Below, piece by piece: positions 20,195-37,088 of a stretch of DNA of 38,450 bases (position 1 is the first letter of the stretch; each line of letters opens with the position of its first letter). This DNA comes from Thermoflexus hugenholtzii JAD2. Its GTDB lineage: Bacteria > Chloroflexota > Chloroflexia > Chloroflexales > Roseiflexaceae. The position numbers and the translations under genes were made by a program. The stretch lies in assembly GCA_945881915.1 (NCBI GenBank), contig CAMCVW010000033.1, forward strand, positions 1-38,450. Direction: 5' to 3'. The notes under the pieces were generated by a model. The model was not told the DNA's origin and made no database searches. It worked only from the letters and a program-made list of their open reading frames with translations.

Positions 20195-20200
20195 GGAAAA

Positions 20201-20229
20201 TTGACAGGCGGCGTTTTTCCTATTAATAT
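20201..20229 (+). promoter_or_regulatory. Promoter of the arginine operon
   Basis: A perfect TTGACA (20201-20206) is followed after 17 bases by TAATAT (20224-20229), a reasonable housekeeping promoter. The expected start point, about seven bases downstream, is at 20236-20237, which coincides with the ATG of the leader ORF. Confidence 0.65.
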
Positions 20230-20236
20230 AGACACC

Positions 20237-20329
20237 ATGATTAACCTGACACACGCTACCCCTATGTTGCGACGAGCAGACCGACGACGAGTCCGAACAG
20301 GACCCGGGTCGGTGATTCGCATTGGGTAG
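20237..20329 (+). CDS. Arginine-rich leader peptide of the arg operon
   Basis: A 30-codon ORF with seven Arg codons: codons 12-13, 16-18, 20 and 28. Six of them are CGA and the last is CGC. The central part reads MLRRADRRRVRTGPG. Its stop (TAG) lies 91 bases before argC. No Shine-Dalgarno sequence precedes it, and the predicted transcription start is at its ATG. The peptide is not expected to have a function of its own: ribosome stalling in the Arg cluster would leave 20303-20316 free to form the antiterminator, while completing translation would mask it. The same segment lies inside codons 23-27, just after the Arg cluster, as required for attenuation. Confidence 0.75.
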   Translation: MINLTHATPMLRRADRRRVRTGPGSVIRIG

Positions 20330-20367
20330 GGCGGGAACGTCTCCAATACTGAGTATCACCCCTCGGG
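20303..20367 (+). promoter_or_regulatory. Antiterminator of the arg attenuator
   Basis: CCCGGG-TC-GGTGAT (20303-20316, within the leader ORF) can pair with ATCACC-C-CTCGGG (20355-20367): twelve base pairs, one a G-U, with a small internal loop. The 3' arm includes the whole 5' arm of the terminator (20359-20367), so the two structures exclude each other. Confidence 0.7.
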
Positions 20368-20393
20368 AGCTATACGCACCCGGGGGGATTTTT
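20359..20393 (+). terminator. Attenuator terminator before argC
   Basis: CCCCTCGGG (20359-20367) pairs with CCCGGGGGG (20379-20387) with one wobble, over an 11-base loop, followed by ATTTTT. It lies 28 bases before the argC ATG and would stop transcription when Arg is plentiful. Confidence 0.8.
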
Positions 20394-20420
20394 ATGTACT
20401 GGCTGAGGAAGGACGACACG

Positions 20421-21431
20421 ATGGTGCGAGTAGGAATCTGTGGGGTGACAGGGTACGCCGGCTACGAAGCATTCCGTTGGTTGCGGCGCCACCGCGGTGT
20501 AACGGTCGTCTTTGCGACGTCGGAAGCACAGGCGGGTAAGTCATTGGCAGAGGTATACCCGGGCCCGCTCAATATCGCGCTCACATCGGTCGAGGATGCA
20601 CCGTTTGACCAGGTGGATGTGGTGTTGTTGGCGTTACCACACGGTGCTGCAGCGAAGGTTGCCGTGCGTGCGCTGGCTGTAGGTGCCAAGGTAGTCGATT
20701 TTTCGGCAGACTTCCGCCTCGACACTCCCGAACGCTATGCAACCTGGTACGGCCACGCGCACGGCTTCCCTGACATGTTGCCGGTACCCTACGGCATGCC
20801 CGAACGCAACCGCGCAGCCATCCGTGCGGCACGGTTGGTCGCTGCACCGGGGTGTTACCCGAGCTCGGTGATTTTGGGTACACTGCCGCTCGTCGAGGCC
20901 GGTGTCATCACGGATTCGACCATCATCGTCGACGCCAAATCCGGTATTTCGGGGGCGGGACGATCCGCCAAGCTGAACACGTTGTTTGCCGAAACGCACG
21001 ACACGGTCACCCCATACAACATCGGGCATGTGCATCGCCATGTGGGCGAAATGGAGCAGGAACTGGCCAAAAACAGTCACGGCTTCAGCCCGACGGTGTT
21101 GTTCCACCCGCACCTCGTTCCCGTGGTGCGCGGAATGTTGAGTTCTATCTATGTCCGTGTCGATGCGACGTTGAGCGAGGCTGACATCCGCGCGCTGTAC
21201 GAGAAACGCTACGCCAACGAGCCGTTTGTGCGGGTATTGCCAGCCGGTATGCTGGCAGCGATGGCGCACACGACCAATACCAATATGTGTGCCGTCTCGA
21301 TTACGGTGACGCAGCCAGGCTGGGTGACTATCATGTCGAGTGTCGATAACTTGGCAAAAGGAGCCGCCACACAGGCCATTCAGTGTATGAATGTGATGTG
21401 TGGATTCGCCGAGACGGAGGGATTGCTGTGA
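20421..21431 (+). CDS. argC: N-acetyl-gamma-glutamyl-phosphate reductase
   Basis: A 336-residue NADPH-dependent reductase, third step of arginine synthesis. VRVGICGVTGYAGYEAFRWL is the dinucleotide-binding start, VDVVLLALPHGAAAKVA follows, and APGCYPSSVILG holds the catalytic Cys near residue 145. SGISGAGRSAK and HRHVGEMEQEL are standard ArgC segments. ATG 20421 has AGGAAGGA seven bases upstream; the frame stays open to 20322 (TTG), but that extension covers the attenuator and is not conserved sequence. The end overlaps the next gene as GTGA. It is the first gene of the operon after the attenuator. Confidence 0.95.
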   Translation: MVRVGICGVTGYAGYEAFRWLRRHRGVTVVFATSEAQAGKSLAEVYPGPLNIALTSVEDAPFDQVDVVLLALPHGAAAKVAVRALAVGAKVVDFSADFRLDTPERYATWYGHAHGFPDMLPVPYGMPERNRAAIRAARLVAAPGCYPSSVILGTLPLVEAGVITDSTIIVDAKSGISGAGRSAKLNTLFAETHDTVTPYNIGHVHRHVGEMEQELAKNSHGFSPTVLFHPHLVPVVRGMLSSIYVRVDATLSEADIRALYEKRYANEPFVRVLPAGMLAAMAHTTNTNMCAVSITVTQPGWVTIMSSVDNLAKGAATQAIQCMNVMCGFAETEGLL

Positions 21432-21910: not shown

Positions 21911-22702
21911 TTGACCACACTCCGTGTCATCAAAATAGGTGGGAACGACATCGATGACCCAGCGTTCGTGCAGCGACTGGTGAACGCCATCGCCGCCATG
22001 CAGCCCAAACCGGTCATTGTCCACGGTGGTGGCAAAGAAATAGGGCAGATTCAGCAGGCGCTGGGCGGTGAACCGCGCTTCGTCGCGGGCTTACGCGTCA
22101 GCGACGAGACCGCCATGGCGGCTGCCGAGATGGTCCTCGCCGGCGCGGTCAACACGCGCTTGGTGGTGGCACTGGGAGTCGCCGGGGTCGACGCCGTGGG
22201 GATGTCGGGTGTCGATCGTGGGCTCATCCGTGTGACGAAGCTCCTACATCCCGATGGTGATTTAGGACGCGTCGGACTGCCTGTTTCGGTACGTACCGCA
22301 GTGCTTTGGCAAGCGCTCGAAGCCGATGTCGTGCCGGTGATTGCACCTATCTCGTTGGGCGACGATGGCAGTTATAATGTGAATGCCGATGACGCTGCCG
22401 GCGCGATTGCCGCAGCATTGGCCCTAGACGGTCGCAGTGCAGCGGTAGAAGTGACCTTTGTCACCAACGTGCCCGGGGTCAAACTCGACGGGGCAGTGGT
22501 CGCGCAGTTGGACGCACCGGCCATCGATAGTGCCATCCTCAGCGGGGCAATCTATGGTGGCATGATTCCCAAAGTCAGAGCGGCACTGGCCGTCCTTGCG
22601 GCCGGGGTAGCCCAAGCACGGATCGTCGATATACAAGGTCTTGAAGCATTGGCGACGGGCAGTGAAGCAGGCACCGTGATTCTTGTCGGAGGTGTCGCAT
22701 GA
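21911..22702 (+). CDS. argB: Acetylglutamate kinase
   Basis: A 263-residue amino acid kinase, phosphorylating N-acetylglutamate with ATP. RVIKIGGNDIDD is the N-terminal phosphate loop, PVIVHGGGKEIGQI the substrate-binding G-rich loop, FVAGLRVSDETAMAAAEMVL the acetylglutamate site, and YNVNADDAAGAIAAAL with FVTNVPGVKLDG the nucleotide half. The start is TTG 21911, with AAAGG eight bases upstream; no ATG or GTG is suitably placed. The N-terminal helix of arginine-inhibited hexameric forms is absent, so feedback control by arginine at this step is unlikely. The end overlaps argA by ATGA. Confidence 0.93.
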   Translation: MTTLRVIKIGGNDIDDPAFVQRLVNAIAAMQPKPVIVHGGGKEIGQIQQALGGEPRFVAGLRVSDETAMAAAEMVLAGAVNTRLVVALGVAGVDAVGMSGVDRGLIRVTKLLHPDGDLGRVGLPVSVRTAVLWQALEADVVPVIAPISLGDDGSYNVNADDAAGAIAAALALDGRSAAVEVTFVTNVPGVKLDGAVVAQLDAPAIDSAILSGAIYGGMIPKVRAALAVLAAGVAQARIVDIQGLEALATGSEAGTVILVGGVA

Positions 22703-23232
22703 CGATTATTCGTGATGTCGCCACCAGTACGCCGCCATCTGCAGTCCATATGCGACTGGCTACCCACGATGATGTGGATGCAATCAAAGTCGTGGTCGAC
22801 GAAAACGTCGCACTCGGGCATCTGTTGCCACGGACACGTGAGAATATCGTCTCGTCCGTGGGCAACTGGATGGTCGCCGAAGTCGATGGGAAGGTCGTCG
22901 GCATTGGCTCACTGCTCGAGATGGGTCCTGCCTTGGTCGAAGTACGCTCGCTGGCAGTCTTGCCCGAATATCGCCGGTATGGCGTGGGCGGTGAAGTCGT
23001 CACTGCGCTGGTACACGAAGCACAGCAACGTGGCTACCCGACGGTGTTCGCATTGACGCGAGCGGTGAGTTTTTTTGAGCGCCAAGGGTTCGTCGTGACT
23101 GAACACGAACGATTCCCCGAAAAAGTCTGGCGCGATTGTGTGCTGTGCCCGTTACAGGCGCGGTGCGATGAAGTAGCAGTTGTCATTGAATTTGCCACGC
23201 GACGTTCCGACGTCGATGGGAAGGGACAGTAA
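22699..23232 (+). CDS. argA: Short-type N-acetylglutamate synthase (GNAT)
   Basis: A 177-residue GNAT protein of the single-domain NAGS group. The core has VHMRLATHDDVDAIKVVVDE, VEVRSLAVLPEYRRYGVGGEVV (acetyl-CoA loop) and RAVSFFERQGFVVTEHERFP. The tail KVWRDCVLCPLQARCDEVAV, with three Cys, is typical of the short ArgA proteins fused to ArgH in some bacteria or encoded alone. It transfers acetyl from acetyl-CoA to glutamate; together with argJ this primes the acetyl cycle. It lacks the amino acid kinase domain that gives classical ArgA its arginine inhibition. ATG 22699 overlaps the argB stop. Confidence 0.85.
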   Translation: MTIIRDVATSTPPSAVHMRLATHDDVDAIKVVVDENVALGHLLPRTRENIVSSVGNWMVAEVDGKVVGIGSLLEMGPALVEVRSLAVLPEYRRYGVGGEVVTALVHEAQQRGYPTVFALTRAVSFFERQGFVVTEHERFPEKVWRDCVLCPLQARCDEVAVVIEFATRRSDVDGKGQ

Positions 23233-23235
23233 GGC

Positions 23236-24363
23236 ATGCAGGCAGGGTTCCTCCGTACACCAGCCGTCCTCGCACTCGAAGACGGTACCATTTGGGCAGG
23301 TAGTGCATTCGGCGCAATCGGCCAACGGACCGGTGAAGTGGTATTCAATACGGCAATGACTGGCTACCAAGAAGTCTTGTCCGATCCGTCGTATTACAAC
23401 CAAATCGTCGTCATGACCGCACCGCATATCGGCAACACCGGCGTGAACGATGCCGATAACGAAAGCCGGAAGTACTGGCTATCGGGATTTGTGGTACGTG
23501 CGGCAAGCCCACGCGTCAGCAATTACCGTGCTGATTCTTCGCTCGATGACGAAATGCGCACCCAGGGCATCGTCGGCATCACCGGCATTGATACGCGCGC
23601 GCTGGTGCGACACATTCGCTCCGCTGGCGCTATGCGTGGTGTCGTTTCGTCCACGGTGCTCGATCCCGCCGAACTCGTCGCCATGGCACACAGCGTGCCC
23701 ACGATGGAAGGGCTCGACCTCGTCCCGCAGGTCACCTGCACTGCTGCCTATACCTGGAATACCGGCGTGGGCGAATGGGGTTTGGGCTCGCGTGGGACCA
23801 AAGCCAAACGGCACTTGCACGTCGTGGCCTATGATTTCGGCATCAAACAACACATTTTGCGCCTATTGGCAGAGCGTAACATCACGGTGACCGTGGTCCC
23901 TGCGACGACGCCTGCTGCAGAAGTACTGGCGCTGAAGCCAGACGGCGTCTTTTTGTCGAACGGCCCTGGCGACCCTGCCATGGTGACCTATGCCATTGCA
24001 AATACGAAAGCGTTGTTGGGCAAGGTGCCCCTGTTCGGCATCTGTCTGGGTCATCAAATCCTCGGCTTGGCGCTGGGCGGGACGACCTACAAGCTGAGCT
24101 TCGGCCACCATGGCGCTAATCAACCTGTCGCTGCCTACGGCAGGGTCGAAATCTCGTCGCACAATCATGGCTTTGCCGTGCAGGCAGATTCACTGCCTGC
24201 TGGTGCAGCGGTTACCCACGTCAATCTGAATGACAACTGTGTCGAAGGACTCGAAGCACCAGGGCTGAAGGCATTTAGTGTGCAGTACCATCCCGAAGCA
24301 GCCCCTGGTCCCCACGACGCAGCCTACTTGTTCGACCGTTTCGTACAGTTGATGGAAGGGTAA
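23236..24363 (+). CDS. carA: Carbamoyl-phosphate synthase small subunit
   Basis: A 375-residue glutaminase subunit, releasing ammonia from glutamine for the large subunit. The N-terminal domain ([34 protein letters not shown]) is of normal type. The class I amidotransferase domain has [26 protein letters not shown] with the nucleophilic Cys, and [14 protein letters not shown] with the catalytic His-Glu pair. It lies three bases after argA and just before carB. Its product feeds both arginine and pyrimidine synthesis. Confidence 0.95.
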
Positions 24364-24372
24364 GACGCCGCA

Positions 24373-27300
24373 ATGCCTAAGCGTACCGACATACACAGCA
24401 TTCTCATCATTGGTTCTGGCCCGATTGTCATCGGTCAAGCCTGTGAATTCGACTACTCCGGCGCCCAAGCCTGCAAAGTGCTCCGTCGTGAAGGCTACCG
24501 CGTCATTCTGGTGAACTCCAATCCCGCCACCATCATGACCGACCCCCAATTCGCCGACGCCACCTACATCGAGCCGTTGACGCCCGAGGCGGTCGAGCAG
24601 ATTATCATCAAAGAAAAACCCGATGCCATCCTGCCCACGGTGGGTGGGCAAACGGCACTCAACCTGGCCATGAAGTTGCACGAATTGGGCATGCTCACCA
24701 AGTACAACGTCAAGTTACTCGGTGCTCAGCCGGAGGCGATTGCCCTCGCCGAGGACCGCGAGTTGTTCAAACAAGCGATGCTCGAGATAGGCCTGGGCGT
24801 TCCATTGGGCGAAACCGTCACCACCGTCGACCAAGCGGTCGTCGTAGCCGCCAAAATCGGCTACCCGATTCTCATCCGCCCTTCGTTCACCCTCGGTGGT
24901 AGTGGCGGCGGCATCGGTTATGACGAAGCACAACTGCGCGAGATCGCAGAACGTGGCTTGCGCGCGTCACCCGTCACGCAAGTGCTCATCGAACAATCCG
25001 TCATCGGCTGGAAGGAATACGAGCTCGAAGTCATGCGTGACCGGGTTGACAACTTTGTGGTCGTCTGCACCATCGAAAACATCGACGCCATGGGCGTCCA
25101 CACCGGCGACTCGATGACCGTTGCCCCCGCGATGACATTGACCGATCGTGAGCTTCAACGCCTGCGCGAGATGGCCAAAATGGTCATCCGCCGCATCGGT
25201 GTCGAGACCGGCGGTTCAAACATCCAGTTCGCCGTCGACCCCAAGACCGGCACTCCTTTGGTAATCGAAATGAACCCCCGCGTCAGTCGTTCGTCGGCTT
25301 TGGCCTCCAAAGCGACCGGCTTCCCCATTGCCAAAATTGCTGCCATGTTGGCAGTGGGTTACACCCTCGACGAAATTCCCAACGACATCACCAAACTCAC
25401 CCCCGCGTCGTTCGAGCCGAGCTTGGATTATGTGGTGGTCAAATTGCCGCGTTGGGCATTCGAGAAGTTCCCCGGTGTCGATCCCATCCTCGGCCCACAG
25501 ATGAAGTCGGTCGGCGAGGTCATGGCCATCGGTGGCACGTTCGCCGAAGCATTCCAGAAGGCCATGCGTGGCCTCGAAATAGGTGCAACCGGCTTTGTAG
25601 GCAGTAATCAGGTCAAGATGGTCGGCAATGACGACATCCGTATTCCCACCCCGCGGCGTGTCTTCCGCGTCTGCGACGAAATCCGCGCGGGTGCGTCGCT
25701 CGAATCGATCTGCGAACGGACGGGTTTTGATCCGTGGTTCGTCGAGCAGTTCCAAGACATCGTCGCACTCGAGAAGGAGCTCAGCGGCTATAGCCTCACT
25801 GCGCTCCCGAACGAATTGTTGTTCACGGCAAAGGAATACGGCTTCTCTGACGCACAATTGGCAACGATTTTGTCAGATAAACCGACTATTTCTGCTGTCC
25901 GTAGTCACCGCAAAGCACACAAAATTGTGCCGGTCTACCGCAAGATTGACACCTGTGCTGCGGAGTTCGAGGCATCCACGCCGTACTTCTACAGCACCTA
26001 CAGTCGTCAGCCGGGCAGTGACGAGGCCAACGTCAGCGATAAACCCAAAGCTATGATCATTGGCGGTGGCCCCAACCGCATCGGTCAGGGCATCGAATTC
26101 GACTATTGCTGTGTGCATGCATGTATGGCGTTGCGTGACCTCAATATCGAAACCATCATGATCAACTGCAACCCCGAAACCGTGTCGACCGACTACGACA
26201 CCGCCGACCGGTTGTACTTTGAGCCGTTGACACTCGAAGACGTGCTTAACATCTACGACCGCGAAGCGGGTGCAGACTTCGGTCCCGCTGTACGCAGCGT
26301 GCCAGCATTGGTGCAGTTCGGGGGGCAGACTCCATTGAATCTGGCGCACGGCCTCGAGTCAAACGGGGTCCCCATCTGGGGCACGTCGCCCGATGCGATT
26401 GATTTGGCCGAGGAGCGCGGTCGCTTCGGTGCATTGCTGAACAGCATGGACATCGAAATGCCGCCCAACGGCATGGCAAACAACCTCAGCGATGCCCGCG
26501 CCATTGCACACCGCATCGGCTACCCGGTGCTCGTTCGTCCGAGCTATGTATTGGGTGGGCGTGCCATGGCAATTGCCTATGATGACACGTCGTTCGAAAA
26601 ATACATCGCCGAAGCAACCGTGGTCAGTGCGGGTGCACCGGTGTTGATCGACAAATATCTCGAAGACGCATTCGAAGTCGATGTCGACGCCATCGGTGAC
26701 GGTACCCAGATGGTCATCGCCGGCATCATGGAACACGTCGAAGAAGCCGGGGTCCACTCTGGTGACTCGGCCATGGTGTTGCCGCCGTACAAAATCACCG
26801 CATACCACCTCGAAATCATCCGCGATGTCACCAAGCGTATCGGTATCGCCTTGAACGTCAAGGGACTGATGAATGTCCAGTTTGCCATCAAGGACGACGT
26901 GGTCTTTGTCATTGAGGTCAACCCACGTTCGTCACGGACCGTCCCATTCATCGCAAAAGCGACAGGGTACCCGTTAGCCAGCATTGCGGCGCAGGTGGCT
27001 GCCGGCAAGACGCTCAAGGAGCTCAACTTCACCGAAGAGCCGAAGGTCGATGGATTCTTTGTGAAGGAAGCAGTCCTGCCGTTCGACAAGTTCCCCGGCG
27101 CAACCATTATGCTCAGCCCCGAAATGCGTTCGACCGGTGAAGTAATGGGACATGCATCAAACTTCGGTCTGGCTTTTGCCAAAGCCGAAATGGGTGCGAA
27201 TCAGAAGATTCCGACCAAGGGTGGAGCCCTGCTCACGGTGAACAACAATGACAAAAACGCGATTGTGAAAATCGCCAAGGATTTGGCGCATCTCGGCTTT

Positions 27301-27633
27301 TCGTTGTACGCCACCAGTGGCACTGCCGAGATGTTGCTCGGGGTGGGCATTGCCTGTGAATCCGTCAACAAAATCTCTGACGGGTCACCCCACACCGCAG
27401 ATTTGATTGCATCGGGCAAAGTTCAGTTGGTCATCAGCACTCCGCTCGGATCGACGGCGTACAACGATGGACAAGCGCTGCGAGCGGCGGCGATTCGTTA
27501 CGGTGTCATGCTGGTGACCACGTTGACGGGTGCTGCAGCAACCGTGGCGGGGATCCGTGAGCTGCAGCAGCGCACACTCACCGTCCGTTCGTTGCAAGAT
27601 CACTACGGCATTGCCAAGGGACGCCAGGCATGA
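24373..27633 (+). CDS. carB: Carbamoyl-phosphate synthase large subunit
   Basis: A full-length 1086-residue synthase with two ATP-grasp halves: the first begins [20 protein letters not shown] and has [14 protein letters not shown] and [15 protein letters not shown]. The second half begins at about 560 with [20 protein letters not shown] and has [19 protein letters not shown]. The C-terminal MGS-like domain is at about 940-1086 ([20 protein letters not shown]), where UMP and ornithine act in enterobacteria. No frameshift is visible. The stop overlaps the start of the SNF2 gene as ATGA, so the helicase is co-translated with carB. Confidence 0.96.
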
Positions 27634-30600
27634 CGAATGCACGGGTGCAGTTGATAACCCCAGCGCTCCTCGATGGATTTTTGCAGGCAGTTGAGCCGGC
27701 GTTGCGGCGCCGGGCAAACGCACTGTTGGCCAGTGGGAGTGTGACCCTCGAGCAGGTAGAACCTGCCAGTGCGGTCGTTGTGGTCGTCGACAATACCCTG
27801 GTGCGCCGTGTCACAACGATGCTGATTGCCGGGCGAGTTACCACGTTGTGCGATTGTGTACACCGCGACGAAGGACCATGCCTGCATCGCGTCGTGGCGA
27901 TCAGCGCGTTATATGCGCACATGACCAGCAATCCACCACAATCGTGGGAAACGCTCTTTGCGCTGTCGGATAAACCACGAATCAGCACCGCGACACCCAC
28001 GGCGACGGTGGTGTGTTTCTTTTTACAGCAATATCATTCGTTCGGCGTCGGCGACGAGCAGTGGGCAGTGGTTCCGGCCAGTGTGACACCGCGGTCGGGG
28101 CAATCTGACTGGCAGGGTGCCGACATCCGCCCACTTCGGGCTCCGCCGACGCCTGCTGGGTATCCGCAGAGTTCAACCGCAGTACTCCAAGCTGCGGCAT
28201 TACTCTGTGAGCAGTCTATTGCGCTTGTGCAACCCGGACAACGCGCATGGCTGTACGCAGCGGCCTTGGCGTTACTCGCTGAACAAACCGTTTACGTGGG
28301 TAAAGGACCGATGACGTTCAGTCAGCCGGTACATGTATATGGTGATCCTGGCGAACTGCAAGTTTCGTGCGATGAAGACGGGTCTGATTTACTCCTGCAG
28401 AGTATCGTCTATAGTGCACAACGCAGCGTGGTCATCGATCAAGCCAATCGCACCCTCCTGCCATTCAGTCCGCATTGGGTCTGGACGGGAGCCAACCTCG
28501 TGTGTGTCGGGGATCGTACCCCGTTAGTGGATCAATTGCTGCTCAGCCCGACGATGCGGGTGCGCGCCGAGGATCGGGAACGATTTGACCAGCGTCTGCT
28601 TGAACTCGCTGCGCGTGTGCCGCTGTGCGGCTCCGCAGTGCGTTGGGATGAGGTCATTGTCGATCCGATCGGTCAGGTCACGCTCCAAGAATCCGACGGA
28701 ACGGCCGTCGTGCGGTTGGAATTTGCCTATGCGACCCACATGTTGGCGTTCGATGCGCTGTACCCGCATCATGCTGTCTTGCACGGCGGCGAAGAGCTCC
28801 ACCTGGTGCGCATCACGCGACAGAGCGACCTCGAACGCGAGTGTGTGAGTTTGCTCGAACAACAGGGGCTACGGATGTCGGAGGACGGTACGTTCCGCCT
28901 TCGCAAGAATATCCCAGCTCGAGATTTTCTCATGCGTGTGATTGGCGTCCTTGCCTCGCATGGGATGCGGATTCTCGGTGAGGATGCATTGCCGTCCGTT
29001 CGCATGCGCACAGATGTGCCCGAGCTGGCAGTGACAGTCCGCTCACATATCGATTGGTTCGACGTGGCTGCGGTGGTCCATTTTGGTGATTTATCCGTCG
29101 ATGTGGCGGTGGTGCGCCGTGCGGTGCTCCGGCGTGAGCGCTATATTTTGCTCCCTGATGGTTCGATTGGCTATGTCCCGAACGAACTCGCCCAGCGGCT
29201 GGCCCCGTTGTTGGCAATGGGCACTGAGGGGGATGGTCGCCTGCGCTTTGCAGCGGCACAAACGGCGATCGTCGACCAACTCATCCAAGAAGCCCAACGC
29301 GCAGAAGTCGATGCAATGTTTGAGCAACGTCGTGAGCAACTCCGGCTGTTTGAACGTATCGAAGCACAGGAATTGCCATTGGGATTCCACGGGACATTGC
29401 GCAGTTACCAGAAGGCTGGGTACGACTGGCTCCACTTCCTCAATCGATATGGATTTGGTGGATGTCTTGCTGACGATATGGGCGTGGGCAAAACTATTCA
29501 AACCTTGGCGTTTATCCAATCACTCCGTGAGCGTAATCCTGGGGCCAAAGCAATTCTCATCGTCCTGCCGCGCTCACTGGTCTACAACTGGTTGCGTGAG
29601 GCATCGACATTCACCCCTGGCCTCACGTTGCTGACCCATATCGACCAGGGGCGTGCCAAAGACGCAACGCCGTTTGATGCATATGATGTCGTCCTGACGA
29701 CATATGGCACGATGCTGCGCGATATAGAATTTTTGTCTGCGTACCGCTTCCAGTATCTCATTTTGGACGAATCGCAGGCAATCAAAAATCCGACCGCCGA
29801 GACAGCGCGTGCGGTGCGCCGCTTGCAAGGTGAACGGCGCTTGTCGTTGACCGGGACCCCCATCGAAAACAACGCCGTCGAACTCTGGTCACAGTTCGCG
29901 TTCCTCAATCCGGGCTTGCTGGGCACTGCCGAGGCCTTCCGTGACACGTTTGCGCGAGAGGGTGAAGGTCGCGATGCTGCCATTCAACTGTTGCGTCGCT
30001 TGACATTCCCATTCATTCTGCGCCGTACCAAAGACCAGGTCGCACCCGATTTGCCATCGCGCACCGAGCACATCCTGATGAGCGACATGGAGCCAGAGCA
30101 GCGCAAATTGTACACCACGCAACGCGATCATTACCGGGCGTTGCTGCTCGGCATGATCGATACGGGTGGACCACAGCAAGCCCGCGTCAAGATGCTCGAA
30201 GGATTGCTTCGTCTGCGTCAAATCTGCAATCACCCGCGCCTCATCGACCCCAATAGTGCGGGCGGTTCAGGGAAGTTCGAGTCGTTGTTGGCCACGCTCG
30301 AATCGCTTAAAGAAGCAGGTCATCGCGTGCTCGTTTTTTCGCAGTTCGTGCAGATGCTCACCCTGGTCCGGGCAGCCTTGGACGAACGCGGTATCGCCTA
30401 TGCGTACCTCGATGGACGGACCCGTGATCGGCAGAGTATCATTGACGCATTCCAGAATGATATGCGTTATCCGTTTTTTCTCATCAGTCTGCGTGCCGGC
30501 GGGGTTGGACTCAATCTGACGGCGGCAGACTATGTCATTCATATCGATCCGTGGTGGAATCCCGCGGTCGAAATGCAGGCGACCGACCGTACCCATCGCA

Positions 30601-30773
30601 TCGGCCAGACGCGTCCCGTCATGGTCTACAAAATGGTCGTGCGCGACTCGGTCGAAGAAAAAATCTTGCAGCTCCAAGAGCGCAAGCGTGAATTGGTAAG
30701 TCAGCTCATCACACCAGAACGCGGGGGAATCAAGACGCTGACCCGTGCAGATGTTGAGCTTTTATTTACATAA
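27630..30773 (+). CDS. SNF2-family helicase with SWIM zinc finger
   Basis: A 1047-residue protein. Near the N-terminus is a SWIM zinc finger, [20 protein letters not shown] (residues about 72-91, C-x-C...C-x-H). A long middle region resembles SNF2-associated domains. The SNF2 ATPase core begins at about 585: [31 protein letters not shown] (Walker A, about 615), [10 protein letters not shown] (DEAH-box variant DESQ), [19 protein letters not shown], then the second RecA-like lobe with [33 protein letters not shown] and [14 protein letters not shown]. It is a DNA-translocating ATPase of unknown target. Its position between carB and argG, with an ATGA overlap, is unusual for an arginine operon. 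Confidence 0.92.
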
Positions 30774-30784
30774 AGGAGTGGGCA

Positions 30785-31996
30785 ATGGAACGTCCGAAGG
30801 TCAAGAAGGTCATGCTGGCGTATTCAGGCGGACTCGATACCAGCATCATTGTGCCGTGGCTCAAACAAAACTACGGCAATCCCGAAGTGATTTGTTATTG
30901 CAGTCATCTCGGTCAAGACGACGAAATCGAAGGCCTCGAAGCTAAAGCAATTGCATCAGGTGCGTCGAAGTGCTACGTCGAAGACCTGCGCGAAGTCTTC
31001 GTCAAAGACTACTTGTTCCCATTGATTCAATCCGGTGCCAGCTACGAACGGTTGTACCTTTTGGGTACGTCTGTTGCCCGCCCCCTCATTGCCAAGCGCC
31101 AAGCCGAACTCGCACTGCTCGAAGGGTGTGATGCACTTGCCCACGGCTGTACCGGCAAAGGGAACGACCAGGTCCGCTTCGAACTGACCTATATGGTCTA
31201 TGCACCGCAACTCACGGTCATCGCTCCATGGCGCGAATGGAACATCCGCTCCCGCGAAGACGCCCTCGACTACGCTGCCGAGCACAATGTGCCCGTCACT
31301 GCCACGTTGAAGTCGATCTACAGCCGCGACCGCAACATCTGGCACATGTCCCACGAAGGTGGCGTGCTCGAAGACCCATGGAACGAGCCTGAGGAAGTCA
31401 TGCACACCTTGTCGGTATCGCCCGAGAATGCTCCGGACAAGGCTGAATACGTCGAAATCGCCTTCGAAAAGGGTATTCCCGTGTCGGTCGATGGCAAACG
31501 TCTCGGTCCGGTTGAATTGTTGACCACCTTGAATAATCTGGGCGCCAAGCATGGCATTGGCCGCATCGACCTGGTCGAAAACCGACTCGTCGGTATGAAA
31601 TCGCACGGCGTCTACGAGACTCCCGGTGGCACCCTGATTCGCGTCGCGCATCAAGCCCTCGAGCAGTTGACGTTGGATCGCGACACCCTGCATTACAAAG
31701 ACGTTGTCGCACAGCGCTACGCCGAAGTGGTCTATTACGGTCAGTGGTTCACGCCGTTGCGTCGCGCCATGCAGGCATTCTTCGACATCACCCAAGAGAA
31801 CAACACGGGTGTGGTCCGGCTCAAGCTCTATAAAGGCAATGCAATCTTGGTCGGCCGCAAGGCAGACCGCACGTTGTACAACCCGGATATCGCCAGCTTC
31901 ACGATGAGCGACACGTACAACCAACAGGACGCTGCAGGTTTCATCAAGATCTTTGGTCTGCCCATGAAGGTGCAGGCTTTGGTGGACGGGAAGTAA
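30785..31996 (+). CDS. argG: Argininosuccinate synthase
   Basis: A 403-residue ATP-pyrophosphatase-type ligase joining citrulline and aspartate. VMLAYSGGLDTSIIVPWL is the PP-loop. Further conserved parts are LGTSVARPLIAKRQ, AHGCTGKGNDQVRFE, IWHMSHEGGVLEDPWNEP and GVYETPGGTLI. Length is normal. AAAGGAG lies six bases before ATG 30785, so its translation is independent of the helicase. A long open frame on the other strand (30956-32146) is a coding shadow. It is followed directly by argJ. Confidence 0.96.
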   Translation: MERPKVKKVMLAYSGGLDTSIIVPWLKQNYGNPEVICYCSHLGQDDEIEGLEAKAIASGASKCYVEDLREVFVKDYLFPLIQSGASYERLYLLGTSVARPLIAKRQAELALLEGCDALAHGCTGKGNDQVRFELTYMVYAPQLTVIAPWREWNIRSREDALDYAAEHNVPVTATLKSIYSRDRNIWHMSHEGGVLEDPWNEPEEVMHTLSVSPENAPDKAEYVEIAFEKGIPVSVDGKRLGPVELLTTLNNLGAKHGIGRIDLVENRLVGMKSHGVYETPGGTLIRVAHQALEQLTLDRDTLHYKDVVAQRYAEVVYYGQWFTPLRRAMQAFFDITQENNTGVVRLKLYKGNAILVGRKADRTLYNPDIASFTMSDTYNQQDAAGFIKIFGLPMKVQALVDGK

Positions 31997-32000
31997 AACC

Positions 32001-33203
32001 ATGACGGATGCATTTTTGCTCGCTCCCGGATTTCGGACGGCTGCCACAGCCTGTGGTCTCAAAAAAGATGGTGCGTTAGATCTGACTCTGATTGTCAGCG
32101 ATGCGCCGTGTAGTGCAGCGGGAGTGTTTACCACCAACCGCGTCAAAGCGGCACCGGTGCTCTACGACCAGGCAATGCTCGCGACGTCAGCCGGCCGCAT
32201 GCGTGCGGTCGTCGCCAACGCGGGCTGTGCCAATGCCTGTACGGGGACCGAGGGTGCGCAGAATGCGCAGCGTATGGCCGAACTCGCCGCCGAGATGGTC
32301 GGTACCAGTGCCGATGCGGTGCTGGTACTCTCCACCGGTGTAATCGGGCGCCAACTCGACATGACCAAAGTCAGTGCCGGGATCCGGAGCTTCACACCCG
32401 CCACGATGAGTCGCGATGCAGTGCGTACATCGCAGGCAATTATGACCACCGATACACGCCCCAAGCGGGCAACTGCCACCGGTACCATCGCTGGCAAAAC
32501 GTTCACCGTCGCCGGTATGGCTAAGGGTGCCGGGATGATTCATCCCGGTATGGCGACCATGCTGTCGGTTATTACGACCGATGCTTCCTGTGAACCTGCG
32601 CTGCTGCAGCGTGCCGTCAAAACGGCTGCAGACCAGAGTTTTAATCGTATCAGCGTCGACGGCGACATGAGTACGAACGACACGGTGCTGCTGCTTGCGT
32701 CGGGTGTTTCGGGGGCGGTCGTGACCGATGCAACGTTTGATGCATTCGTTGCGGTGCTGGCCGAGGTATGTATGGACCTTGCCAAGAAAATCGCCCGTGA
32801 CGGCGAAGGTGCCACCAAACTGGTCGAAATCCGCATCACTGGTGCTACCGATGGTGCCATGGCGCATCGCGTCGCCGATAGTATCGCCTGCTCACCGTTG
32901 GTCAAAACTGCCATTCATGGCAATGACCCCAATTGGGGTCGGGTTGTCTGCGCGGCTGGCTATAGCGGCGCCGAGATTAATCCTAATACGCTAACCCTTG
33001 ACTTTGGTTTGGGGATTGAACAAATTCGCCTGGTTGCTGCAGGGATGCCATTGGATGCAGATTTGAACGCCGCATCACAACTCTTGAACCGTGAGCATGT
33101 CTTTGTTACATTGGATCTCGGTTTGGGGAGTGCAGCTACGACCATGTGGACCTGCGACTTTTCGAAGGAATACGTCGAAGTCAACGCACACTATACGACG
33201 TAA
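32001..33203 (+). CDS. argJ: Glutamate N-acetyltransferase / ornithine acetyltransferase
   Basis: A 400-residue N-terminal-nucleophile enzyme that moves the acetyl group from N-acetylornithine to glutamate. FLLAPGFRTAATACGLKKDG and GVFTTNRVKAAPV start the protein. KGAGMIHPGMATMLS contains the Thr (near residue 185) at which the precursor cleaves itself into two subunits and which is the nucleophile. FNRISVDGDMSTNDTV and NDPNWGRVVCAAGYSGA complete the signature. With argA present, the pathway can both recycle and replenish acetyl groups. ATG 32001 lies four bases after the argG stop. Confidence 0.95.
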   Translation: MTDAFLLAPGFRTAATACGLKKDGALDLTLIVSDAPCSAAGVFTTNRVKAAPVLYDQAMLATSAGRMRAVVANAGCANACTGTEGAQNAQRMAELAAEMVGTSADAVLVLSTGVIGRQLDMTKVSAGIRSFTPATMSRDAVRTSQAIMTTDTRPKRATATGTIAGKTFTVAGMAKGAGMIHPGMATMLSVITTDASCEPALLQRAVKTAADQSFNRISVDGDMSTNDTVLLLASGVSGAVVTDATFDAFVAVLAEVCMDLAKKIARDGEGATKLVEIRITGATDGAMAHRVADSIACSPLVKTAIHGNDPNWGRVVCAAGYSGAEINPNTLTLDFGLGIEQIRLVAAGMPLDADLNAASQLLNREHVFVTLDLGLGSAATTMWTCDFSKEYVEVNAHYTT

Positions 33204-33277: not shown

Positions 33278-35707
33278 ATGAGCTTGGTGCAAATAAAGAT
33301 TGTCGTATGGAAATCATTGATGCAATATATGCATCATCTGTGGGCTCGTAAACCTGCAGATGTGTGGTTTGTGGTCATCATCTTTGGTGTGATAACGACA
33401 ATTATGGCGCCCGTGTTGATCGGCCAACATACCTGGCTCCCACTCAACATCATGGTGCATTTACCCCCTTGGAATTATTCATATGAGCGCATGCCTATTG
33501 GCAACACATTGCCGAGCGATTTAATTTTGAAACATTACCCACAGCGGCTCTTTTATGCGCGCGAGTTGTGGTCGGGTCATTTGCCCCTGTGGAATCCATA
33601 TATATTGAGTGGGACGCCATTTCTTGCGGTTGCAAACAGTAGTGTCTGGTATCCGCTCACTGCTCTCTTTGCACTCCTTCCAACTGACTACGCTTTTGGC
33701 GTGGTAGCGTGGCTTCATCTGCTGATTGGCGGAGTGAGTGCCTGGTTGCTGGCGCGCTCTCTACGGATAGCGCCGTTGCCCTCCTTGTTGGTACCCGTCA
33801 TCTATTTGGGCTCGGGATTTGCAACTAAATGGCTCGCCTTGCCCACCATGGGTGGCGTCATCGCATGGACACCAGTGGCAATGTATGGTGCTATTGCTTT
33901 GGGAACGAGTATGGCAAGCGCTGACTGGGCGGGGGCAAGGCGAGCGGCAGTCTACTTTGGTGCTGGTGTTGTACTAGCCGGCTTATCACAGCCCGACACA
34001 GCGTTGTATATGGTTATTGCCGGAAGCATAGTGGCCATTGGCATCGTGTGGAGTCTGCAGAAACGCTATGTGCCACATATGATTGCCGGCTTGGTAGCGA
34101 TTGGCGTGTTGGTCTTTGGTTTGATGGCACCTCAAATTTTACCCACTGTAGAGCTCGGCTTGTCGGTATCACGGGCGGGCGGGAAGGGAGGGTACAACCC
34201 ATTAGCGATTGTGACTACCATTGCTCCCGAATTATTGACGAGTCTGCACACTACGGGGAATTGGGGCTTCAAAGATGGGTCGTTGCCTGACTGGCAAATC
34301 GGTCTTTTGCCGTTGTTGCTCTGGTTGTACGGGTGGTGGCTTCTCGCTGATGCACGACTGCGGGTGTTTTCTGGTGTCGCTCTTCTCTGCGTTTGCTATG
34401 CAATATCGCCGATATCGTGGTGGCAAAGTGTGCCGCTTTTGTCGCAGTTTCGGGAATTGAGCCGTGCCATGTTGCCAGCGTCGTTGTTGATGGGTGTGAC
34501 GGTCGCATCCACGGTCATGCGTTTGCAATCCTCGACTCCGATTCGTTTGCATCTGATCGGCATGGTGCCAGCACTTGCATTTGCGCTTGCCCTCGGGTAT
34601 GCGTGGCGGGTTACCCCCGGTTTGCCATGGCTGATATTAGCATCTTACCAAGGCGTTGAGTGGCTGTGGCCGAGTTTGGCTGTTGTTGCTACAGCAGCGG
34701 TCTGGTGGCGCCGTGTGGCTCTCCATCCCTTGATGCCGGTGGTTGTACTATGCATCGTGGCGACGCAACTGTGGTGGTACTGGCGTCCGTTGAACCAACC
34801 AGTCGACCCTCGAACGGTTGTGGCCACGAGTGATTTTCGGGCTGAAGTGCCAGCCGATGTGCCATCGGATCCAGTATTACCAATGACACGCATGCAGTAC
34901 TTTTTACAACGTCAACCCGGGTTATTTCGTATTTTTGCTGCCGACTACCCATTTTATCAAGCCAATACCAACATGGTGGCACAGCTCTACGATGTGCGTG
35001 GCTTTGATTCGCTTATTTGGGGCGAGTATGCACGCTTTGTAAGGCGTTGGGAAGGGAAGCTGCAGGATGGTGGCAACAGTGTGAGCATGTACTTGACCAA
35101 CGCCCGTGTTACACCACGTTGGCTAGACTTGACCAATGTACGCTATGTGTTATTTCGGCCGAAGTCACCCCTGATTGCACAGTTCCCCGGGTTAGAGTTG
35201 GTACACCAGAGTGATGAGGGAAGTATTTATTTCAACCCGAACGCGCTGCCGCGAGCTTACATGGTGCATCGAGTTGAGCAGTTGGCTACTCAGGATGCCG
35301 TGTTTTCGCGATTACGTGAGCCGCAGTTCCCTATGGGGGAGCTGGTTGTCACCAATGTGGCGATTCCCGTCGTGGAGCGCGTGACTGGTGAGGTGACAGC
35401 CCCCGAGGTACGAAGCTACCAGGCTAATCGAGTGGTTGTCACAGGAGTGGCAAAGGCGTCCGGTGTCCTTGTTTTGAGTGACACCAATTATCCGGGGTGG
35501 CAGGCTACGCTCAACGGTGCAAGTGTGCCCATTTACCCCGTAAACGGCATCTTCCGTGGTGTCTGGGTGCCTACTGGAGCATACGAGGTGGAATTCACGT
35601 ATTGGCCGGCGAGTTTGAGCTGGGGGTTAGCCTTGTGGGGGACAACCGTGGGAGTGCTGGTGGCTGGGGTAGTCTATTTCCGCCGGCGGGTAACTGTGGA
35701 CCGGTGA
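33278..35707 (+). CDS. YfhO-family multi-pass membrane protein
   Basis: An 809-residue membrane protein, with about a dozen helices and a large C-terminal outer domain. The first loop, LILKHYPQRLFYARELWSG, and then HLPLWNPYILSGTPFLAV, and the C-terminal SDTNYPGWQATLNGASVPIY, FRGVWVPTGAYEVEF, are typical of YfhO, a family linked to glycosylation of lipoteichoic acid or surface glycans. GGGAGGG at 33271-33277 touches ATG 33278, so a TTG at 33284 or GTG at 33287 may be the true start. The DNA seems richer in A and T than the neighbouring arg genes. The protein interrupts argJ-argH and has no evident link to arginine synthesis. Confidence 0.85.
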   Translation: MSLVQIKIVVWKSLMQYMHHLWARKPADVWFVVIIFGVITTIMAPVLIGQHTWLPLNIMVHLPPWNYSYERMPIGNTLPSDLILKHYPQRLFYARELWSGHLPLWNPYILSGTPFLAVANSSVWYPLTALFALLPTDYAFGVVAWLHLLIGGVSAWLLARSLRIAPLPSLLVPVIYLGSGFATKWLALPTMGGVIAWTPVAMYGAIALGTSMASADWAGARRAAVYFGAGVVLAGLSQPDTALYMVIAGSIVAIGIVWSLQKRYVPHMIAGLVAIGVLVFGLMAPQILPTVELGLSVSRAGGKGGYNPLAIVTTIAPELLTSLHTTGNWGFKDGSLPDWQIGLLPLLLWLYGWWLLADARLRVFSGVALLCVCYAISPISWWQSVPLLSQFRELSRAMLPASLLMGVTVASTVMRLQSSTPIRLHLIGMVPALAFALALGYAWRVTPGLPWLILASYQGVEWLWPSLAVVATAAVWWRRVALHPLMPVVVLCIVATQLWWYWRPLNQPVDPRTVVATSDFRAEVPADVPSDPVLPMTRMQYFLQRQPGLFRIFAADYPFYQANTNMVAQLYDVRGFDSLIWGEYARFVRRWEGKLQDGGNSVSMYLTNARVTPRWLDLTNVRYVLFRPKSPLIAQFPGLELVHQSDEGSIYFNPNALPRAYMVHRVEQLATQDAVFSRLREPQFPMGELVVTNVAIPVVERVTGEVTAPEVRSYQANRVVVTGVAKASGVLVLSDTNYPGWQATLNGASVPIYPVNGIFRGVWVPTGAYEVEFTYWPASLSWGLALWGTTVGVLVAGVVYFRRRVTVDR

Positions 35708-35726: not shown

Positions 35727-37088
35727 ATGTGGGGTGGACGATTTAGTCAGGGACTCGACGCTTTGATGGCCGAGCTCAACAACTCGTTTCCGTTTGACCG
35801 TGCGATGTGGGCCCAAGACATCCGTGGCAGCATGGCGTGGGCACGTCAAATCTGCGTCGCCGGAGTGATTACGAGTACCGAACGCGATGACCTTTTACGC
35901 GGACTGCAGGTGGTCTATGATGAATTTGCATCGGGTGCGTTCCCCGCCAAAACAGCCGACGAAGACATCCACTCCGCAGTCGAACGACGATTGGGCGAGG
36001 TCGTCGGAGCAGTAGCAGGCAAACTCCACACCGGTCGGAGCCGCAACGATCAAGTTGCCACCGATATTCGGCTCTGGGTGATGGCAGCAATAGCGCGTAC
36101 CGATGAGTGTCTCCAAGAGGTGCAACGTGCCATCCTGGTACAAGCTGATGCCGCGGGGGATTTGATTATCCCAGGTTATACTCACGTCCAACGCGCACAG
36201 CCGATTTTGTTGCGGCATTGGTTGTTGTCACACTTCTGGCCATTGCAACGTGATCGTGAGCGGCTCGCGGATTGTCTGACCCGCGTTGCGGTGTTGCCGC
36301 TGGGTTCAGGGGCCATCGCTGGCACTCCGCTTAAGGTTGATCGGCGCGCTTTGGCTGCAGAATTGGGGATGCACGACATCAGCCGTAACAGCGTCGATGC
36401 AATCAGTGATCGCGACTTCATCGCCGAATACTTGTTTGTGGCAGCCATGGTCGGCATCCACATCAGCCGTTTGTCCGAAGACATGGTTTTTTTTAGCAGC
36501 GCCGAGTATGGCTTTGTGTCGCTGGCCGATGCGTATTCGACCGGTTCGAGCCTGATGCCCCAAAAGAAAAACCCCGATTCGTTCGAGTTAGCCCGCGGCA
36601 AATCCGGTCGGTTGGTGGGCAGTCTGATGACCATTTTGACGGTGCTAAAAGGGTTGCCGTCGGCCTACAACAAGGACCTGCAAGAAGACAAAGAACCCTT
36701 GTTCGATGCAGTTCGCACCATTGAATTAACCTTGCCCGTGGCTGCAGGTGCATTGGCTACGGCGACATTCAACCGCGCTGCGTTGCTGCGTGGTTTGGAT
36801 GATGCGATGTTGGCGACAGATGTTGCCGACTATCTTGTTGATCGTGGCGTCCCATTCCGTACTGCACACAAAGTCGTCGGTCAGTTGGTCCGCATCGCCG
36901 AGGAACGCGGGGTCAAGATGGTCGCGTTGCCGCTCGACGTATTCCAGAGTGTCGACGCAACCTTCAAGGCAGATGTGATGGAGTGCTTCAGCATGGCGGC
37001 GTCAGTGGCGGCACGTACGGTGCCTGGGGCAACTGGCCATCAGGCCGTTGCAGAGCAGTTAGCTGCAGCGCACGCATGCCTGGCTTAG
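35727..37088 (+). CDS. argH: Argininosuccinate lyase
   Basis: A 453-residue lyase of the fumarase/aspartase superfamily releasing arginine and fumarate. MWGGRFSQGLDALMAELNNS, HTGRSRNDQVATDIRLW near residue 100, GYTHVQRAQPILLRHWL and the signature GSSLMPQKKNPDSFEL near 272, which carries the catalytic Ser, are all intact. There is no C-terminal ArgA extension, in agreement with a separate argA in this operon. GAGGAGGGC upstream of ATG 35727 is a strong ribosome site. Confidence 0.96.
   Translation: MWGGRFSQGLDALMAELNNSFPFDRAMWAQDIRGSMAWARQICVAGVITSTERDDLLRGLQVVYDEFASGAFPAKTADEDIHSAVERRLGEVVGAVAGKLHTGRSRNDQVATDIRLWVMAAIARTDECLQEVQRAILVQADAAGDLIIPGYTHVQRAQPILLRHWLLSHFWPLQRDRERLADCLTRVAVLPLGSGAIAGTPLKVDRRALAAELGMHDISRNSVDAISDRDFIAEYLFVAAMVGIHISRLSEDMVFFSSAEYGFVSLADAYSTGSSLMPQKKNPDSFELARGKSGRLVGSLMTILTVLKGLPSAYNKDLQEDKEPLFDAVRTIELTLPVAAGALATATFNRAALLRGLDDAMLATDVADYLVDRGVPFRTAHKVVGQLVRIAEERGVKMVALPLDVFQSVDATFKADVMECFSMAASVAARTVPGATGHQAVAEQLAAAHACLA

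Follow-up and report, generated by a model that had tools for sequence, protein, structure and literature searches.

Known leader-peptide attenuators sense tryptophan, histidine, leucine, isoleucine/valine, threonine or phenylalanine, and the control of arginine biosynthesis is usually ascribed to the repressor ArgR or, in some bacteria, to T-boxes. In the trp, his, leu and ilv attenuators a short leader ORF rich in codons for the amino acid of the pathway is followed by RNA segments that pair alternatively as 1:2, 2:3 and 3:4, with an intrinsic terminator ahead of the first structural gene. The locus described here appears to share this arrangement and differs from those systems in that the amino acid is arginine, the leader is probably leaderless in its translation, the host belongs to the Chloroflexota and ArgR was not found. 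A precedent for translating a leader peptide that lacks a ribosome-binding site is Corynebacterium glutamicum ilvBNC (Morbach et al. 2000, as given in PMC10272879), but the system concerns branched-chain amino acids and Actinobacteria. Arginine codons serve as sensors in the Salmonella orf34/speF leader, where consecutive Arg codons sense arginine via ribosome pausing; unlike the present case, the target is polyamine synthesis, the control runs via Rho, translation and RNase G, and there is no intrinsic-terminator switch (PMC6386406). The Staphylococcus aureus rbfL leader peptide likewise uses rare Arg codons and Arg-tRNA charging, but it blocks translation of a biofilm regulator and involves no transcription attenuation (PMC13009471). 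Arginine T-boxes also regulate arginine genes according to the charging of tRNA-Arg, although there the RNA binds the tRNA directly, without a leader ORF. A survey of Actinobacteria noted arginine T-boxes in other bacteria and mentioned no arginine RNA element in Actinobacteria (PMC1262725), and a 2010 survey of premature terminators extended the leader-peptide systems known from Proteobacteria and Actinobacteria to bacilli (PMC2965389). Within our partial coverage of the literature no leader-peptide attenuator of arginine biosynthesis was found, and an earlier prediction may exist.

The window, by which we mean the whole 38,450-nucleotide stretch analysed, comes from a freshwater Roseiflexaceae genome (Chloroflexota). 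We propose, with a probability of roughly 0.87, that the region ahead of its argC gene acts as a ribosome-mediated transcription attenuator, responding to the charging of tRNA-Arg and governing an argC-argB-carAB-argG-argJ-argH operon.

A leader ORF and three predicted hairpins ahead of argC

An earlier note on this DNA had described a promoter, a 30-codon ORF with seven Arg codons (six of them CGA), a terminator stem with a T-run and a twelve-pair alternative stem that uses the 5' arm of the terminator, and each of these elements is present (Table 1). The -35 and -10 boxes are separated by a 17-nt spacer and the leader ATG lies 7 nt past the -10 box, a distance that leaves no room for a Shine-Dalgarno sequence and makes translation from a leaderless mRNA probable; transcription is expected to start at the ATG itself or 1-2 nt before it. 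The leader peptide reads MINLTHATPMLRRADRRRVRTGPGSVIRIG. Its seventh arginine, at codon 28, is encoded by CGC and stands apart from the regulatory cluster, and dinucleotide shuffling of 20195-20420 yielded an ATG-initiated ORF with at least six Arg in nine codons in 7 of 5000 cases.

The terminator folds at -21.8 kcal/mol (z -3.2), a stability equalled by 3 of 200 shuffles. The antiterminator comprises exactly 12 pairs, appears in the minimum free energy (MFE) structure of 20300-20372, and is mutually exclusive with the terminator, whose 5' arm it shares, while its own 5' arm sits just 3' of the regulatory Arg codons. Its energy is ordinary for its composition (z -1.06), and for this reason its support rests on the comparison between species given below. 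Folding of the leader, which the earlier note had proposed as a check, further placed in the MFE a protector hairpin which that note had missed, formed by the Arg codons and the segment that follows them; this hairpin would complete the classical 1:2 / 2:3 / 3:4 scheme, and most relatives have a hairpin at about the same position.

The arg genes downstream lie on the same strand with tight spacing, from which we infer that they are co-transcribed; attenuator control may extend to the distal genes of the operon. Two further genes lie among them on that strand: a SNF2-type helicase gene (27630-30773) with carB on one side and argG on the other, and a gene for a YfhO-like large membrane protein (33278-35707) that separates argJ from argH.

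Table 1. Positions of the leader elements and downstream arginine genes, numbered from the first nucleotide of the window.
Feature	Coordinates	Strand	Remarks
Sigma-70-type promoter, TTGACA-17-TAATAT	20201..20229	+	-35 TTGACA 20201-20206; -10 TAATAT 20224-20229
Leader ORF, 30 codons + TAG	20237..20329	+	stop 20327-20329; homologous leaders in relatives
Regulatory Arg codons 12, 13, 16, 17, 18, 20, all CGA	20270..20296	+	
Putative protector hairpin (1:2)	20280..20313	+	20280-20294 (Arg codons) x 20300-20313; in leader MFE
Antiterminator (2:3), 12 pairs	20303..20367	+	20303-20308 + 20311-20316 x 20355-20360 + 20362-20367
Intrinsic terminator (3:4)	20359..20393	+	20359-20367 x 20379-20387; T-run 20389-20393
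argC, first gene controlled	20421..21431	+	translation, homologues
GNAT gene between argC and argB		+	
argB	21911..22702	+	TIGR00761
GNAT N-acetyltransferase, argA-like	22699..23232	+	best model under its cut-off
carA	23236..24363	+	
carB	24373..27633	+	
argG	30785..31996	+	
argJ	32001..33203	+	
argH	35727..37088	+	TIGR00838

Conservation of the leader and co-variation of the antiterminator arms

Conservation in relatives, whose absence the earlier note had named among the results that would refute its reading, turned out in favor of that reading: within the family and far outside it, the leader ORF is retained together with its Arg codons, its promoter spacing and the terminator, and the antiterminator arms co-vary. 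An Arg-rich leader ORF followed by a terminator was found in 67 of the 77 Chloroflexales genomes with intact upstream sequence, located upstream of argC, of argG, or of a phosphoglycerate-mutase-like gene adjoining argJ. The leader precedes argC in all 23 Roseiflexaceae genomes and in 8 of 9 Herpetosiphonaceae genomes with intact upstream sequence. It lies upstream of argG instead in four genomes of a second family (f2) and in one Herpetosiphonaceae genome (G048), and in 31 of 41 genomes of a further family (f4) it is found before argG or before the phosphoglycerate-mutase-like gene that precedes argJ; the other 10 of the 41 f4 genomes have no leader at the sites examined. The leaders of f2, f4 and G048 were recognized by a scan for Arg-rich ORFs and terminators together with inspection. 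At argC, an Arg-rich leader with a terminator was not recognized in the other families of the class.

Detailed scoring used 22 Roseiflexaceae and 8 Herpetosiphonaceae sequences (n = 30, window included). All 30 share TTGACA and the 17-nt spacer, the distance from the -10 box to the ATG varies from 7 to 10 nt, and every leader holds at least five Arg codons and is followed by a terminator. Among the leaders scanned, a terminator was detected in 30 of 31, the exception being a Roseiflexaceae genome (G018) that has the leader and an interrupted T-run which failed the terminator filter. An alignment of 25 f4 leaders, judged by eye, has near-invariant arms. Chloroflexus-like genomes carry a longer 5' region before the leader with an SD-like GGAG, and leaderless initiation is therefore not universal.

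How far are the pairing arms themselves under selection? For each of 14 lineages we computed the pairing of the segment 3' of the last clustered Arg codon with the terminator 5' arm of its own lineage and with those of the other lineages. The summed energy of the own 2:3 duplexes is -318 kcal/mol, as against -255 ± 11.5 kcal/mol when partners are permuted, and 0 of 100,000 permutations reached the own sum (z = -5.44). Dinucleotide shuffling of arm 2 gives z -0.19 ± 0.95, the spacer after the stop codon gives no signal (p 0.83), and the first 33 nt of the ORF give a weak one (p 0.045). The co-varying stems that the earlier note had hoped an alignment might reveal are thus borne out for the antiterminator, the arms of which match within species better than between them. 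The same kind of test on the 1:2 hairpin yielded no co-variation signal (z -0.1), which may reflect conservation of the arms themselves or a weaker constraint on the hairpin.

Outside the Chloroflexales, loci were found by scanning genome contigs with an argC alignment, and an Arg-rich leader and a terminator precede argC in 32 of 48 named Chloroflexota loci, for example PRRRRSRRPQTNEVMPGFLR. These 48 loci belong to Anaerolineae, Ardenticatenia, Aggregatilineales, Thermoflexales and unnamed Chloroflexota; eight Latescibacterota and Gemmatimonadetes records were left out and one locus labelled Pleurocapsa was kept in. The contig titled Pleurocapsa minor carries an Anaerolineae-type argC and an arginine leader and is probably a mislabelled bin. 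Many Anaerolineae leaders follow the pattern RRR(R)SRRPxTxEVxxGxLR, within which the third bases are nearly fixed at the T (ACC, 22/24) and at EV (GAG, 24/24; GTC, 21/24). The sequence GAGGTC is complementary to the GACCTC of the terminator's 5' arm in this class. As third bases are fixed where the RNA would pair with that arm, RNA pairing best explains why T and EV are constant. The Arg codons of these leaders vary between CGU and CGC, and their retention is best explained by selection for arginine. The permutation test on the Anaerolineae 2:3 duplex gave z -1.07, the arms there being too conserved for the test. A Herpetosiphon leader, LRLRRPRTNEVRW, also contains RRPxTxEV, and its occurrence in both Herpetosiphon and Anaerolineae suggests common descent. 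Leaders of this design occur in several orders of Chloroflexota, in genomes where ArgR was not found.

Short ORFs rich in Ile, Leu and Val and followed by strong terminators also occur upstream of ilvB, in the window's own genus and in a Roseiflexus-like and a Chloroflexus-like genome; in the window's own genome the short ORF lies ~185-110 nt upstream of ilvB. These are probable branched-chain leader-peptide attenuators. The regions upstream of trpE in six genomes held no convincing tryptophan-rich leader.

Proposed mechanism and competing explanations

The earlier note had likened the arrangement to the logic of the trp/his/leu attenuators, and the conservation of leader and terminator together with the co-variation of the antiterminator arms supports that comparison. 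Leader translation, stalling, termination and readthrough would proceed as follows. The transcript would start at the leader AUG or immediately ahead of it, and ribosomes would translate this leaderless mRNA as it emerges. When arginine is plentiful, the ribosome would pass the Arg codons, reach the stop codon and cover segment 2 (20300-20316), whereupon the 3:4 hairpin would halt RNA polymerase. When charged Arg-tRNA is short, the ribosome would stall at Arg codons 12-18 and disrupt 1:2, so that the freed segment 2 could capture segment 3 while segment 4 has yet to be transcribed, and allow readthrough into argC. With no translating ribosome, 1:2 and 3:4 would form together and transcription should stop.

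This scheme was modelled by folding the 30 sequences with a ribosome at fixed positions, the RNA being masked as far as 13 nt beyond the A-site codon's first base. While segment 4 is still missing, the antiterminator has a mean probability of 0.47 if no ribosome is present; a ribosome stalled in the middle of the cluster raises this to 0.79, whereas one at the last Arg codon lowers it to 0.41 and one at the stop codon to 0.26. For the window itself the probability is 0.58 without a ribosome and 0.74, 0.29 and 0.55 at these three positions, a contrast between ribosome positions that is weaker than the 30-sequence mean. At equilibrium on the full leader the terminator wins in most species even with a stalled ribosome, which means that the decision must fall during transcription and that readthrough would be kinetic.

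Of the explanations that compete with attenuation, the one that survives best, though improbable, is that ArgR or another, possibly unrecognized, repressor acts on the promoter and that the leader is minor or vestigial. ArgR is the usual bacterial regulator, and its C-terminal domain (PF02863) is present in 66 of 301 genomes of an even sample of the phylum, in several of them with ArgR on the contig of argC. However, PF02863 was found in none of 100 genomes of the class, the window's own genome (98.6% complete) included, in a search for which 8 of 14 control genomes were positive. Moreover, a leader at argC occurs in 0 of 20 ArgR-bearing and 11 of 52 ArgR-less genomes (Fisher p 0.028, with kinship ignored and with two of the 11 leaders looking like chance ORFs). 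The absence of ArgR does not in turn predict a leader, since many ArgR-less lineages have neither. The earlier note had placed control by Arg-tRNA charging "instead of, or besides" ArgR; the failure to find ArgR in 100 of 100 class genomes favors the first of these, and "besides" is not favored.

Less probable still is a nascent-peptide arrest of the TnaC or SpeFL kind, in which the leader peptide together with free arginine (or ornithine), rather than a lack of charged Arg-tRNA, would stall the ribosome. Such an arrest would account for a recurrent peptide, and LRRxxRR..R.G does recur in the Chloroflexales while RRRRSRRPxTxEVxxGFLR is strikingly constant in the Anaerolineae. The residues N-terminal of the Arg cluster are nevertheless unconserved even within the window's genus, and the constant T and EV of the Anaerolineae are those whose third bases are kept and pair with the terminator arm, a constancy that RNA pairing explains. 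The sign would also be wrong, as stalling at high arginine would activate a biosynthetic operon in the presence of ample arginine.

Weakest by a small further step is a ribosome-independent terminator/antiterminator (a T-box, a metabolite riboswitch or a protein-binding leader) with an incidental ORF: antiterminator logic alone fits any attenuator, but no Rfam family was matched at gathering score anywhere in the window, no T-box was found there at that score or among the permissive matches of the region, the permissive matches NsiR1 and D12-methyl are weak and unrelated, and the ORF, its start position and its Arg codons are kept in ~100 genomes and loci while the intervening RNA is not.

Arginine codons, tRNAs and the evolution of arginine control

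Under the attenuator reading, the choice of Arg codon would determine which tRNA is sensed. CGA makes up 9.5% of the Arg codons in 14 coding sequences of the window. In the window's genus it is used for nearly all clustered leader Arg codons, whereas the other Roseiflexaceae genera use mostly CGU/CGC, such that the Arg residues persist through synonymous change. Bacteria commonly read CGN codons with an inosine tRNA, and a set lacking an ACG anticodon is unusual. The tRNA-Arg genes seen in the window's own genome have the anticodons GCG, UCG, CCG, UCU and CCU, an additional tRNA gene, truncated at a contig end, was read as CCU by eye, and no ACG gene was seen among them. With such a set, the UCG tRNA should decode CGA and the GCG tRNA CGU/CGC, and the sensor here is expected to be the charging of tRNA-Arg(UCG). 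According to selective-charging theory, attenuators should use the isoacceptor with the charging most responsive to starvation, and we speculate that the switch to CGA retunes sensitivity, as this theory would allow (PMC1183508).

A broader proposal can be offered tentatively, at somewhat less than even odds: that Chloroflexota without ArgR adjust their arg genes to arginine mainly or solely through an ancient, phylum-level attenuator, leaderless in several lineages, and that its sensing codons changed concertedly from CGU/CGC to CGA in the window's genus, that is, to another tRNA-Arg isoacceptor. If a conserved arginine attenuator does operate across several orders of one phylum where ArgR was not found, repressor and attenuator would be evolutionary alternatives for the control of one pathway. 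The replacement of CGU/CGC by CGA throughout the cluster offers a natural test of the theory of isoacceptor choice (PMC1183508).
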